DNA from: Cohaesibacter sp.
Lineage (GTDB): Bacteria > Pseudomonadota > Alphaproteobacteria > Rhizobiales > Cohaesibacteraceae
DNA: 45,947 bases
Direction: 5' to 3'
Assembly (NCBI GenBank): GCA_025800105.1
Contig: JAOXSG010000484.1
Coordinates: 1 to 45,947, forward strand
How positions within the stretch are numbered: the first letter of the stretch is position 1; each line of letters begins with the position of its first letter. Shown here piece by piece: positions 4,688-30,345 of this stretch. The translations under genes and the position numbers were made by a program. The notes beneath the pieces are model-generated. The model had not been told where the DNA came from, searched no databases, and saw only the letters and a list, made by a program, of their open reading frames with translations.

Positions 4688-6313
4688 TCAACTCCAGCCA
4701 CCGCCATAGGTTTTATAGAAAATATGCAATCCGATCTTGCCGCGACGTTTCATGGTGCGGGCCCATTTCGGGTTCACATATGTGGCGTGATAATGGGTGG
4801 AAGAGCCAATATTTTTCAGCCAAACCTCTTCATTGATCACCTGCCCGGACAATTTCCAAGCAAGATCCCATGCCTTTTTCGACAAGATCCGGTCGCGGAT
4901 TCCATCACAGGCAAAGGAGAATTGGCAAGCATTGCGCTTATGCTTGTTCTGATACACCACCCCGCAAATGCTGTTGGGATAGGTTGGATTCTTCACCCGG
5001 TTCATGACCACTTGTGCAACAGCAATCTGCCCTTTAACCGGCTCGGAACGGCTTTCAAAATAGATCGCATTGGCCAGACAGGTCTTTTGCTGTTTGCTAT
5101 AGCTGGATTTGGGCAATTTATTGCTCACCCAGGCATGTTCGCCCTTGGTTGGAATTTTGACTTTCTTTTTCTTGGAACTGCCAAAATTAAACCAGCTCGC
5201 CCAACGGGATTTCTTTTTTGGCTTTTCAGCCTTGACCTTGGCAGGAGCCAGAGACGCCATTTGAATGCGTGGCTTTTGTGCCGTCACAGAGCCAGCCTCA
5301 GAGCCTTTGGGTTTCTTCGCAGCTTTGGCCAGAACGGAACTGGTATCCAGCGGCTTGGCTTTTTGGCGCGGCTCTAGTTTGGGTGATGCTGCAAGGCGTG
5401 AACGATTGGGCTTTGTGCGCGGCAAGGCGGCGATTAAATTAAGCGGACCCTTGCGCTCTTCAACACTTTCTTTTGCTTCGCCAGTCTCTTGAACAGGCGC
5501 AGCGTCACTCTGGTCAGGGTTCAAATAGGGATTGTCTTCAAAAACCTGCCCGTTTTTTTGCTCCGTCAAGATTGCGCGAAACGGCTCTTCCAATTGCTGT
5601 AAAGATGTCGGCGCATAGGCAAGCGATGTGGAACCATCGCCAAGATTTTTTGCGACAAGATCACGCGTCTGAGGGGCGTTGCCTGTGTCAGCCTGCGCCA
5701 CCATCATCCCGGTGATCGGCTGTTGCACAGGATCGGGCAAAAGAAAGGCCTTGGCATCTGCCATCATGATCCGGCGATCTTTTTTCCGGGCAAAGGCTTG
5801 CTTGGGGAGGGCCTCTTGTTCGGGCTGATCAAAAAGGCTGTGCATGGTCCACACAGCGCCAGACCAGTTCAAAGCAATGGCTTTGCGCCCACTGGCTACC
5901 TGATAGGGCTCCCAGCCCCACGCTTTGCGCCGGTCGCCTTTGCCTGAACGTTTGACATGGATGCTCTGTTTGCGATCAACAAAAAGCAAAGGCTGATCTG
6001 AAACAGGCGCATGGCGGGCCGCTTGCGGATCATCCTTGATAATTTCAGCAATTTGAATCAGGGCGCGCTGTGAGCCATCACCAAGGCCGCCATTGGCTTT
6101 GATGGAAAAATCGAGCTGCGTGCCTCTCATGCCCAAATCCTGACCGGAAAACAAACGATGGGTCCAGGCCTGTTGGCGAAGCTGCGCAAGGGAAAGACCA
6201 GAGCGGCTTTCTTCCTGAATTGGTTGGGTGAAAGACAAAAGAAGACCGGTGCTGACAAGCAAGCCCGGCATCAGGCGTGAGCTGACAGAGCTCAGAGCAG
6301 TTTTCGACATCAT
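4688..6313 (-). CDS. SleB-like cell-wall hydrolase (Hydrolase_2 domain)
   Basis: Probable peptidoglycan hydrolase in the periplasm. The C-terminal 150 residues carry the Hydrolase_2/SleB domain: CLANAIYFESRSEP with the presumed catalytic glutamate, GQIAVAQVVMNRVKNP, CQFSFACDG, and STHYHATYVNPKW near the end. The N-terminal part, about 380 residues, is low-complexity and basic, rich in K, P, A and Q, with a lysine-rich segment (SSKKKKVKIP) just before the domain. The tandem ATGs at 6313/6310 are chosen because the sequence after them (MMSKTALSSVSSRLMPGLLVSTGLLLSF) is a signal-like segment. The ribosome site is weak (GTGGTGAC), and an in-frame extension to 6382 cannot be excluded. Such proteins in Rhizobiales are often annotated only as cell wall hydrolase. 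Confidence 0.87.
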   Translation of the reverse strand: MMSKTALSSVSSRLMPGLLVSTGLLLSFTQPIQEESRSGLSLAQLRQQAWTHRLFSGQDLGMRGTQLDFSIKANGGLGDGSQRALIQIAEIIKDDPQAARHAPVSDQPLLFVDRKQSIHVKRSGKGDRRKAWGWEPYQVASGRKAIALNWSGAVWTMHSLFDQPEQEALPKQAFARKKDRRIMMADAKAFLLPDPVQQPITGMMVAQADTGNAPQTRDLVAKNLGDGSTSLAYAPTSLQQLEEPFRAILTEQKNGQVFEDNPYLNPDQSDAAPVQETGEAKESVEERKGPLNLIAALPRTKPNRSRLAASPKLEPRQKAKPLDTSSVLAKAAKKPKGSEAGSVTAQKPRIQMASLAPAKVKAEKPKKKSRWASWFNFGSSKKKKVKIPTKGEHAWVSNKLPKSSYSKQQKTCLANAIYFESRSEPVKGQIAVAQVVMNRVKNPTYPNSICGVVYQNKHKRNACQFSFACDGIRDRILSKKAWDLAWKLSGQVINEEVWLKNIGSSTHYHATYVNPKWARTMKRRGKIGLHIFYKTYGGGWS

Positions 6314-7333
6314 GTCACCACTTACACAAACGCAACTAATCCACACAATCACAGATCCCAAAACGCCGGACCGCGAACGCAAAGACCGGAAATGATGTTA
6401 ACGCACTTCCAGACTGCCTGTGATAATGGGCTATTAACCTTGAAAGACGGTTAACAGACACAAGAAAATCCAGCCTGTATCCTGGGCGTCATAAGAGTGC
6501 TCAGCGCGAACAATGTCACGGATTGTCAGGCAATCGCTGCGCTTGTGTGGAATAGAAATTTGGCAGAGCTATGGCAGACTGCCATCAGACAGGAGCGGGA
6601 AGGGAAGAGGGCTTTCGCAAATTGCAGTCCTTGCAAGGAAGAAAAGTGAAGCCGTTTTAACCATAATCACGACAACAGACTGCAGCATAAGGTTGCGGGC
6701 AAAATGCATTCTGTAAGTTTGCCATAACAGGCAAAGAGGCCGACAATATAACAATCAAGAAGGAAAAAGTAAGACAATGAAAAATGCCCGGACCGAAGTC
6801 CGGGCAAGTCGTCAATACCAAACAAATAAGGACTAACCTACTCGCGTTCAAACCAGCAAAGAACGTCTTCGGTCGGACACGAAAATCGGAACAGTCCCCG
6901 CAGAATGTTCGCGTTTCGCACCTAGAGCCAAGAAAGGTGGAGCGTCCAGCCTTATCGGTCAAGCAATCCAAGACTAGCGCTTTTTTCTGTCTAAATCATC
7001 CCCAAAAATTCGATGAATTGTAAGATTTTCCCCCAAAAATTGGGGGGAAGAGAGGCAAAAATGCAGGTTTCATCTCCTTAAGGTGTATAATGCTGTACTG
7101 ATATTGGTATTTATATGTACATCTTTGAGTAGGGTTGCAGTGGTGTTTGATTCGTATTTAAAGCTGTGATCGGTTGCGATGCTCTTTTGGTCTCATATGG
7201 ACAATAACTGCTATAGAGCATTGCGCTTTTTCATATCTTTGGCTAAAGGAAAGCAAGTCTTGTCATCCAGCCGATTGGATGAAGGCTGCATCAAAAGGCC
7301 AGCCATCAACAGCCCAAAAAACAGGAAATCCAG
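6314..7333. other. Long region without a convincing gene
   Basis: About 1 kb between the cell-wall hydrolase and a small membrane protein. Short open frames exist but lack ribosome sites, and the longest minus-strand one reads straight through a terminator hairpin. Visible structure: the strong UUCG hairpin at 6786-6805, the decamer-sized direct repeat CCCCAAAAATT near 7000 and again near 7034, and a short palindrome in the second copy (CCCCCAAAAATTGGGGG). The upstream stretch is AT-rich and may hold promoters for both sides. A small RNA on the minus strand ending at the hairpin is possible. Confidence 0.5.
6774..6805 (-). terminator. Strong intrinsic terminator with UUCG loop
   Basis: On the minus strand GCCCGGAC-TTCG-GTCCGGGC (6805-6786) is a perfect 8-bp GC-rich stem closed by a UUCG tetraloop and followed by ATTTTTCATT. 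This is a textbook rho-independent terminator for minus-strand transcription. No protein gene is recognised upstream of it on that strand, so its transcript is unidentified. Confidence 0.8.
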
Positions 7334-7627: not shown

Positions 7628-8572
7628 CTAACTTTGCAGGCGCTGCGTCAACTCTTGTGTGATGCGATAATCCGCTTCAAATGGGCCAGAGGCTGTGCGC
7701 AATGCCTCATCGAGCTTGGCATGAGCCAAACCAATTTTACCAAATTTCAGCCCAATCCGATCAGCAAGCCAAAGGCGCATCTGATCTGATCGTTGGGTAG
7801 AGAAATCATCATGCTCCAATAAATGCCGGTGATGATCATCTACCGCTGCACTCAGGCTCCCCAATCCATCACCAGTGGGGGCACAGACCATCAAGACAGG
7901 CACCGACCAATCGTCTTTCGTGCGCAAGGCAAGAGACAAGGCCCCTTGAACATCGACTTTGGCCCGCCGGGCAGGCGCACCCATATCAGCTTTGGTCACA
8001 ACAACAATATCGGGCAATTCCATGATCCCGGCTTTCATGAATTGCAAACTGTCGCCAGAGCCGGGTTGAATGCACAAAATAATGCTGTCCGCAGCAAAGG
8101 CAATATCGGCCTCTGACTGGCCAATGCCAACACTTTCCACCAGAACATGATCAAAGACAGCACGCATCAGAATAATCGCAGCAAGGCTTTCATGGGATAA
8201 GCCGCCAAGGCGATCCCGCGCCGCCATAGAGCGCACAAAAACCCCCATATCGCCGGGGTCGGTATCAAGGCGTGTGCGATCTCCCAACAAAGCCCCAAGC
8301 GAAAAGCGTGAAGAAGGATCAACTGCCACAACCCCAACCGTCTCGCCACGCGCCCGCCATTGCTTGATCAAGGCATTGGTTAGCGTCGATTTGCCAACAC
8401 CGGGCGGACCAGTCAAGCCTAGAACATGGGCTTTGGCATTGCGGGCGGCCTCATCCAGCAAGTGCGCGGTACGAAGCTGGCCATCATTGGCTTCAATATT
8501 GCTAAGGGCTCTTGCAAGAGCCCGTTTGCCACCAGCCCGGATATCTTCCAAAGACCATAAATCCTGCGACAC
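7628..8572 (-). CDS. meaB: MeaB/ArgK-type GTPase (methylmalonyl-CoA mutase chaperone)
   Basis: G3E-class P-loop GTPase that protects and reactivates adenosylcobalamin-dependent methylmalonyl-CoA mutase. 314 residues, close to the family norm. Walker A is GPPGVGKST (residues 55-63), followed by VGVVAVDPSSRFSLGALLGDR, FVRSMAARDRLGGLS, the switch region VESVGIGQSEADIA and the base-recognition motif TKAD. The start is a GTG at 8572 with AGGAGAG 6 bases upstream, a strong site. The mutase genes are not in this window, so the partner must lie elsewhere. It follows ppdK on the same strand after a 118-bp spacer holding a repeat end, so co-transcription is uncertain. Confidence 0.93.
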   Translation of the reverse strand: MSQDLWSLEDIRAGGKRALARALSNIEANDGQLRTAHLLDEAARNAKAHVLGLTGPPGVGKSTLTNALIKQWRARGETVGVVAVDPSSRFSLGALLGDRTRLDTDPGDMGVFVRSMAARDRLGGLSHESLAAIILMRAVFDHVLVESVGIGQSEADIAFAADSIILCIQPGSGDSLQFMKAGIMELPDIVVVTKADMGAPARRAKVDVQGALSLALRTKDDWSVPVLMVCAPTGDGLGSLSAAVDDHHRHLLEHDDFSTQRSDQMRLWLADRIGLKFGKIGLAHAKLDEALRTASGPFEADYRITQELTQRLQS

Positions 8573-27990: not shown

Positions 27991-28075
27991 GGGCCGTACC
28001 GCCGACAGTAAAATCCCCCTTTTTGTGCGCCTGAGAGTTCGATTGAGACAGCTCGTTATCCAAGACGCCTCAACT

Positions 28076-28115
28076 CTGCCCTGATCTGGTTGCCGCCGGA
28101 TCAGGGCAGCTTTTT
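28076..28115 (+). terminator. Strong intrinsic terminator after the radical SAM gene
   Basis: Perfect 11-bp stem CTGCCCTGATC (28076-28086) and GATCAGGGCAG (28099-28109), then C and five T. Followed by non-coding DNA. Confidence 0.85.
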
Positions 28116-28456: not shown

Positions 28457-29035
28457 ATGCAGCGTCTGGGTGCACTCTTTATTGCCATTTGTATGGTGGT
28501 AATATCTGCCTCAGTGGGAGCAATCCTGACGATCAAATTCGGATTGACCATTTTGGAAGCTGCGCCCTTTGCTGTTGGCCTGTTGCTCACCCTTATGCTT
28601 ATCCATTATCAAATCAGCCGTGTGCGTGATCGCCTGATCATTGACGAACAAATGGATGATTTGACGCGCCTGAAACTGTCCCTGACCAAAGATGTGCAGG
28701 ATGTGCGCGAACTGGCCGAGCAGCTGGAACAAACAGTTGCCTCGCGCATGCGTTCGGAAATGGATCCTATTCTGGCCGAGCTGGATGTGATGGGCACATT
28801 GGTCAAGCAATTGGCCGAGAGCTGCGCTGAGTTGGATGAGCGGGTGGATCTCAATGATGAGCGAGCGCAGGCTTTGAAAAACAAGATGGATCTGGCAACC
28901 CAAACCATGGCCAAAATCCAGCAAAGCCTGACCTCCGGGGCTTTGGCCGGGCGCGAAAAAGCCAACATCTCCGGCAAAAAAAACAGCACCAGGATACTGA
29001 CGAAAGAGAACAAGAGCCTGTCAGTGATATGCTAG
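28457..29035 (+). CDS. Membrane/coiled-coil part of an EAL-type protein (0 frame)
   Basis: 192-residue frame with two hydrophobic helices at the start (MQRLGALFIAICMVVISAS, then a second near residues 30-50), a coiled-coil-like middle (DDLTRLKLSLTKDVQDVREL and later TLVKQLAESCAEL), and a tail that stops shortly after an A8 run. Related Rhizobiales proteins usually continue from such an anchor into an EAL domain in one chain. Here the EAL domain is in the next frame, so this is either a truncated short product, an upstream half of a frameshifted gene, or a product of slippage. The ATG at 28457 has GGCGGAG 8 bases upstream. Confidence 0.75.
   Translation: MQRLGALFIAICMVVISASVGAILTIKFGLTILEAAPFAVGLLLTLMLIHYQISRVRDRLIIDEQMDDLTRLKLSLTKDVQDVRELAEQLEQTVASRMRSEMDPILAELDVMGTLVKQLAESCAELDERVDLNDERAQALKNKMDLATQTMAKIQQSLTSGALAGREKANISGKKNSTRILTKENKSLSVIC
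28976..28984 (+). other. Putative -1 slippage site, A AAA AAC in an A8 run
   Basis: In the 0 frame the codons are GGC AAA AAA AAC. Eight A (28976-28983) are followed by C, so the last seven bases read A AAA AAC, a known -1 slippery heptamer. Slipping by -1 moves the ribosome into the frame of the EAL ORF, which is open from 28984 (CAG CAC CAG GAT ...) to 30345 and would give a 629-residue fusion. A sequencing error or ordinary indel in the run is the main alternative. Confidence 0.55.
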
Positions 29036-30345
29036 CCTCGTCCCTCTCAGATGGTGATCAGCAGCAAGAGGTGCAAGCATCGGGCAACGAAAGCGACACG
29101 CGTTTGGCAGATGCCCGCTCAAAAGCCCAAAAAGCGGCCAAAAACTTGCAGGCCATTGCCGAGCTGCATCACGGGCAGGAAAAACAGAGCATTTCAGACG
29201 ATGAAAAACAGGCGGTCCGCCGCGCTTTGGCCATGGGCAAAATGGAATTGCATCTCCAGCCCGTTGTGACCTTGCCAATGCGCAAACCCGCTTTTTATGA
29301 AATGCTGGCTCGCCTTCTCGATGAACAGGGCAAAGTCATCACGCCTGATATTTTTCTGCCGGTCTGCAAGGAGCTGAATTTCCTGCCATTGCTGGATCGC
29401 CTTGCCATCAACAAGGCCTTTAAGATGCAGCGCAGTCTGGCCGATCGCAGCCATGGCATGCCTTGTTTTTGCAACATTTCGCTAGAGAGCATGTCCGACC
29501 CGGATTTCTTTGCCCATATCCGCGATCTCTATGAGCAAAATGCCGATCTGGTCGAAAATATCATTCTCGAATTCAGCCTCTCCAGCTTCAACAAATTTGG
29601 GGTTATGGAGCAGGAAACCCTGCAATTGCTACAAAGCATGGGCTTTCGCTTCTCGGTCGATCAGCTCACCACATTGAAAGCGGATTTCGACCAAATGGTG
29701 CGATCTGGCATTCGCTTTGCCAAGGTCGCAGCCCCGATTCTGACCCACCGCGATGCGGGACGTGGTCTCGATATTCATCCGGCAGATTTTTCCCGCGTTC
29801 TCTCCCGCAAAGGGCTGGATTTAATTGTCACCCATGTCGAGACCGAAAGTGTCTTGGTCAATCTGTTGGATTACAATATCAAATTGGCGCAAGGCAACCA
29901 TTTCGCCCCGGCAAAACCCTTGCGGCCAGACGAGACAAATGCCCGCCCTGATGGCACCACGCAACAGATGGGCCAAGGCCAACAGGGCAGAAACGCAAGG
30001 GGCAATCCGGGAGCTGGTGGCCAAAATGCTGGCTATCAAGCCAATACGCCAACCATCCCGGCCCCAATGGTTCATGGCACCGCTGGCCGCACCAATGCAC
30101 CATTACCCAACGGACAGGCAGGCAACAATCGCACATTGGGCCAAAATCCGCGCGTTGCCCAAGCGCTGAAAGCCATGTCAGCCCAAGATGGCGGCGAAAA
30201 TTCAACCAGAGATCATTTCCGCAATGTCTTGGCAGAGGCGGCAGGCCTGATGCAGCCTCAATCATCCGCATCCAATACAGGGCAACAAGCATCACAAACC
30301 CGCACACCGGACGCACGCCCAACGATCCAGCGTTTGATCCGCTGA
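29029..30345 (+). CDS. EAL-domain (c-di-GMP phosphodiesterase-like) part in the -1 frame
   Basis: 438 residues from the ATG at 29029, but the frame is open upstream to the A8 run. The EAL-type domain (about residues 62-305) is degenerate. The EAL motif reads YEML (E kept), a Glu is present in ILEFSLS, the DDFG-type motif is SVDQL, the Lys in FAKVAAP is kept, and VETES resembles the late catalytic Glu region. Loss of the second Asp suggests weak or absent hydrolysis, possibly a c-di-GMP binding or effector role. The last 120 residues are low-complexity, rich in G, Q, N, P. No good ribosome site lies before this ATG, which argues that the domain is normally made as part of the longer chain. Confidence 0.75.
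   Translation: MLASSLSDGDQQQEVQASGNESDTRLADARSKAQKAAKNLQAIAELHHGQEKQSISDDEKQAVRRALAMGKMELHLQPVVTLPMRKPAFYEMLARLLDEQGKVITPDIFLPVCKELNFLPLLDRLAINKAFKMQRSLADRSHGMPCFCNISLESMSDPDFFAHIRDLYEQNADLVENIILEFSLSSFNKFGVMEQETLQLLQSMGFRFSVDQLTTLKADFDQMVRSGIRFAKVAAPILTHRDAGRGLDIHPADFSRVLSRKGLDLIVTHVETESVLVNLLDYNIKLAQGNHFAPAKPLRPDETNARPDGTTQQMGQGQQGRNARGNPGAGGQNAGYQANTPTIPAPMVHGTAGRTNAPLPNGQAGNNRTLGQNPRVAQALKAMSAQDGGENSTRDHFRNVLAEAAGLMQPQSSASNTGQQASQTRTPDARPTIQRLIR

Follow-up and report, generated by a model that had tools for sequence, protein, structure and literature searches.

A tipF-like gene split by one base in a poly-A run of a draft Cohaesibacter genome

The split gene and its surroundings

The window, a stretch of 45,947 nucleotides from Cohaesibacter sp., represents contig 354 in an assembly of 1,224 contigs (bin G000) that is 65% complete. 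It carries a tipF-like gene whose reading frame is broken at a run of adenines (Table 1). The two overlapping frames from which the preliminary description of this DNA had set out were both recovered, as were the A8 run and the heptamer A_AAA_AAC, which lies in heptamer phase with the upstream frame (GGC AAA AAA AAC, codon 174). The EAL frame, by contrast, had been described as starting at 28984 and was found to be open already from 28861. Visual inspection agreed with the earlier statement that this frame has no good ribosome site. The upstream frame terminates at a TAG codon (29033-29035), which is overlapped by the first ATG of the EAL frame. The arithmetic of the proposed -1 shift at the run also held, uniting the two frames in a chain of 629 residues (1,890 nt, with one base counted twice, minus the stop). 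The product as drawn would be a 192-aa stub devoid of the EAL domain.

Table 1. Parts of the split tipF-like gene and their positions in the window.
Feature	Position	Strand	Description
N-terminal part of tipF-like gene	28457..29035	+	192-aa frame; TAG just past the A run; membrane helices and coiled coil (by eye)
Poly-A run, site of frame break	28976..28983	+	exactly A8, followed by C
EAL frame	28861..30345	+	open frame; first ATG at 29029; overlaps the upstream frame, one frame back
EAL domain	about 29209-29910	+	Pfam EAL; poorly conserved tail beyond

The presence of flagellar genes in the host was assessed with the FlhA family, for which matches without stops were obtained in G000 as well as in its nearest (G008) and next nearest (G010) relatives. 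The sole flagellin match in G000 is fragmentary and lies at the edge of a contig. Among the eight neighbouring proteins scanned, none matched a flagellar family; seven were assigned to other groups (S49 peptidase, DUF418/acyltransferase-like, radical SAM, HAD hydrolase, GcvT/CAF17-like, M20 peptidase and molybdopterin-binding) and one was matchless. A strong terminator-like hairpin of 15 pairs (28076-28109) immediately follows the radical SAM gene and precedes the tipF-like gene; the stretch 28064-28115 around it shows 94% identity in G010.

Identity of the gene and selection acting on it

Both halves of the gene matched the NCBIfam model NF051880 (TipF) in model order, the N-terminal half over model positions 1-160 (E 7e-5, 21.8 bits) and the EAL half over model positions 125-397 (E 6e-55, 186.7 bits), with the latter also giving a Pfam EAL match (E 3e-36). 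The curated equivalog cut-off of NF051880 is set at 600 bits, which was passed by none of the four genomes tested and by one of 14 named controls. Because the scores fall far under this cut-off, including those of three intact congeners (196.5-200.6 bits), the gene was named only "TipF-like". The best matches to solved structures by sequence were 3pfm, 3pjt, 3pjw and FimX entries (E 4e-15 to 3e-10); the entry labelled 'cyclic dimeric GMP binding protein' is presumably LapD. With the EAL c-di-GMP receptors LapD and FimX, the window protein has the EAL domain alone in common. It resembles TipF, as modelled in NF051880, in combining an N-terminal membrane/coiled-coil part (by eye) with a C-terminal EAL domain, but differs from the model in its greater length, its extra C-terminal tail and its broken frame. 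The gene is best explained as tipF-like: its product, a coiled-coil protein anchored in the membrane and bearing an EAL domain of the type that binds c-di-GMP, probably acts in flagellum placement or assembly. TipF of Caulobacter is described as being stabilised by c-di-GMP binding and as then recruiting the first flagellar parts to the pole (PMC10212136).

Compared with G008, Ka/Ks amounted to 0.039 in the N-terminal part, 0.60 in the linker, 0.008 in 29155-29943 (EAL region) and 0.30 in the tail. Substitutions between the window and G008 were assigned to branches using G010 as the outgroup. In the EAL region, the window branch carried 0 nonsynonymous and 14 synonymous substitutions and the G008 branch 0 and 8, respectively; the corresponding counts were 2 and 8 (window) and 1 and 8 (G008) in the N-terminal part, and 2 and 2 (window) and 1 and 1 (G008) in the linker. 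For the tail (29944-30342), 5 nonsynonymous and 2 synonymous substitutions fell to the window and 4 and 5 to G008, numbers that are too small to interpret but do not speak for strong constraint 3' of the break. The EAL domain appears to have been functional until very recently, or to be so still. Given the ratio of 0 to 14 in the EAL region, the break would therefore be very recent, not real or partly rescued, and the conservation of this region is equally in line with a fresh mutation, an assembly error and full-length expression through slippage. An old pseudogene was also considered and is countered by the same window-branch counts.

Comparison with congeners and possible recoding

A tipF-like gene was detected in all 18 Cohaesibacter genomes examined, including that of the window, and in the other 17 (17/17) it forms a single open frame extending from a conserved MQRLG start through the EAL domain. 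In G008, whose DNA is 93% identical to the window here, an A9 run occupies the aligned spot and the gene reads through (632-637 codons). Its 632-codon ORF aligns to both halves of the window gene, bearing out the earlier suggestion that the two frames are parts of one gene, a relationship that, given this alignment and the single frame in 17/17 congeners, is not due to chance. The G010 gene has a 634-codon frame and lacks any stretch of six consecutive A; such stretches, six or seven A long, do occur in the genes of L004, L005 and L011, at codons 238-279 and thus well 3' of codon 174 of the window. A poly-A run at the aligned position was found only in the window (A8) and G008 (A9) and was absent from the other 16 congeners; with one genome per species, the comparison of A8 with A9 is between two species represented by one sequence each. 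Because 17 of 17 congeners are single-frame, the frame split is, as judged from this set of genomes, private to the window assembly. Most simply, the fused gene would be ancestral, with the A run having arisen in the small clade formed by the window and G008.

These comparisons bear directly on programmed -1 ribosomal frameshifting at A_AAA_AAC, which would generate the 192-aa and 629-aa products in a set ratio and to which we assign next to no probability. In favour of this reading, the heptamer is correctly phased, the frames are united by a -1 shift, and A_AAA_AAC is reported to be used by some insertion sequences, at least one of which it serves without an established stimulator; however, the same source classes it as a low-efficiency heptamer in E. 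coli (PMC4066793). Neither an in-phase heptamer at the aligned place nor a split frame was present in any of the 17 congeners. In-phase copies of A_AAA_AAC do lie elsewhere inside unbroken frames, at codon 140 in G008 and codon 279 in L005, and since the heptamer is thus accommodated by two intact genes, the motif alone means little. AAAAAAC is not in excess in the window (11 observed versus 11.9 expected), and the RNA 3' of the run was not unusually stable relative to shuffled sequence (z of +1.28 and -0.24, and +0.20 for the spanning stretch), in a model that does not cover pseudoknots. The preliminary description had offered several options, stressing programmed frameshifting in its title, and had named relatives with fused frames and no A run as evidence for an error or a private mutation. 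Fused relatives are what the genus contains (G008 fused with A9, G010 fused without a run, 17/17 fused). Mutation and error, which were among its options, thus stand, whereas the emphasis on frameshifting is not supported, given the fused frames in 17/17 congeners, the chance-level heptamer count and the lack of unusually stable RNA.

Independent translation of the EAL part from its own ATG at 29029, coupled to the stop of the upstream frame, would make the locus a source of two separate proteins. An overlap of ATG and stop codon such as the one seen here can permit re-initiation; however, this ATG has no good ribosome site by eye, is an internal codon of the fused G008 gene and is unmatched in G010, so that we regard two separate proteins as extremely unlikely.

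If the A8 mutation is real, RNA polymerase slippage might add an A in some transcripts and thereby restore some full-length TipF-like protein, a reading that we consider unlikely. Highly efficient slippage of bacterial RNA polymerase is reported for tracts of nine A or T (PMC5009743), and for human apoB, in which the run comprises eight A, about a tenth of the product is stated to be full-length, owing to an extra A in the mRNA (PMC1088944). Poly-A genes of Blochmannia and Buchnera are described as frameshifted, rescued by slippage and free of decay (PMC3017870), and the window gene is like them in that a one-base break in an A run is accompanied by no further decay, here of the EAL region. 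Such absence of decay would, however, be just as expected from a very recent break or from an error. Blochmannia and Buchnera are, moreover, described as endosymbionts in which long A runs abound and slippage has been demonstrated for some genes, whereas the window run is A8 and its slippage putative. In Thermus dnaX (nine A; PMC1088944) and Citrobacter rodentium tssM1 (eleven A; PMC4256274), a poly-A run likewise decides between a short and a long product. These bacterial cases with stated lengths have longer runs than A8, and slippage in them is reported as experimentally proven, whereas the run of eight in the window is not conserved.

Replication slippage might also flip the run between A8 and A9, switching flagellum assembly off and on by phase variation. 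In keeping with this idea, neighbouring lineages differ by one A at the run, the gene is motility related and G000 keeps its unbroken FlhA-family match. However, A8 and A9 are two alleles only, each from a single species, the run is short, and the aligned place lacks it in the other 16 congeners. Among the matches listed on homopolymer-based phase variation in connection with flagella and c-di-GMP, the accessible text mentioned no phase variation of TipF, and no frameshift in tipF was found in the corresponding excerpts on TipF with frameshift. We therefore rate phase variation as very improbable. The broader notion that the A8/A9 run acts as a slippage switch, in replication or transcription, and so determines what share of cells or transcripts has full-length TipF-like protein, and hence what share is flagellated, was judged improbable. 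Were the run such a switch, a c-di-GMP receptor presumed necessary for flagellum placement would be tied to stochastic motility in an alphaproteobacterium.

Origin of the one-base difference

Homopolymer lengths were compared between roughly 0.5 Mb of G000 and 1.5 Mb of G008, which gave 163,550 aligned columns; all runs of six or more bases in either genome were counted, excluding those interrupted by a substitution. Length was equal in 144 of 154 comparable runs. The remaining ten comprised seven that were shorter and three that were longer in G000, numbers too low to reveal a bias or to rule one out. Six runs reached at least eight bases in one genome or the other, and of these the tipF run alone differed.

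To gauge whether the assembly is indel-rich in general, G008 ORFs at least 150 aa long were mapped onto the fetched part of G000. The 127 ORF-locus pairs obtained included 110 that were whole in one frame, six others and 11 that were dropped because of their proximity to the edge of a fetched stretch, leaving 116 that were judged. The tipF-like gene was the sole clean one-base break seen in an apparent real gene among these 116 pairs; the other five non-whole pairs were accounted for by one apparently non-coding conserved stretch (window 6437-6971), one differing 3' part and three with partial end alignment. Reverse mapping gave 123 pairs, with 114 whole, six dropped and three others, the latter being L113/L190, in which the difference lies upstream of a likely start (as judged by eye), L203, with a one-base difference in G008, and L104/L200, a short hit. 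At about position 12790 of L203, the G008 counterpart of L115:18559-19164 shows a one-A difference that apparently breaks its frame, reflecting a mutation, an error or a misplaced start. In a smaller comparison (104,130 bases), 16 indels fell within frames open over at least 120 codons in one or the other genome; many of these frames are probably due to chance. Indels are not abundant in the fetched part of G000. The position of the tipF-like gene as the only single-base split among the 116 pairs therefore leans mildly towards a real mutation over an error.

Taken together, the split very probably reflects either a recent mutation of an ordinary kind or a slip of the assembly, and not an evolved recoding signal. 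In this assembly the tipF-like frame is broken by a one-base length difference in the poly-A run (A8 here, A9 in G008). With modest confidence, this break is put down to a mutation that arose very recently by replication slippage in the sampled cells; alternatively, it could plausibly represent a consensus error of the assembly. The splitting of a gene by one base in an A run is an already-known kind of event. A related case is the Caulobacter flagellar gene CCNA_00944/motD (fliK), which is described as annotated as two genes but as one frame once the sequence of the strain was checked (PMC8545394). There, as here, one base decides between one frame and two in a flagellar gene, although motD, unlike the window gene, was settled as one gene by sequencing the strain in use. 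When an A8-A9 run splits a gene in a draft bin, relatives and reads are needed before any claim of recoding, and the present case shows how much relatives alone can settle.

Elsewhere in the window, a second region drew attention by its conservation. The stretch 6600-7150 (minus strand; core about 6846-6939) is apparently non-coding and has matches in 16 of the 18 Cohaesibacter genomes, counting that of the window. It lies between a cell-wall hydrolase gene (4688-6382, minus strand) and a meaB-like gene (7628-8572, minus strand), and no Rfam family matched it at the gathering score. Its identity in G010 reaches 89%, compared with 70-86% for most of the longer stretches matched in that genome, and it is followed near 6780 by a G+C-rich hairpin and a T run, as seen by eye. 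The stretch is possibly an unnamed small RNA or leader.
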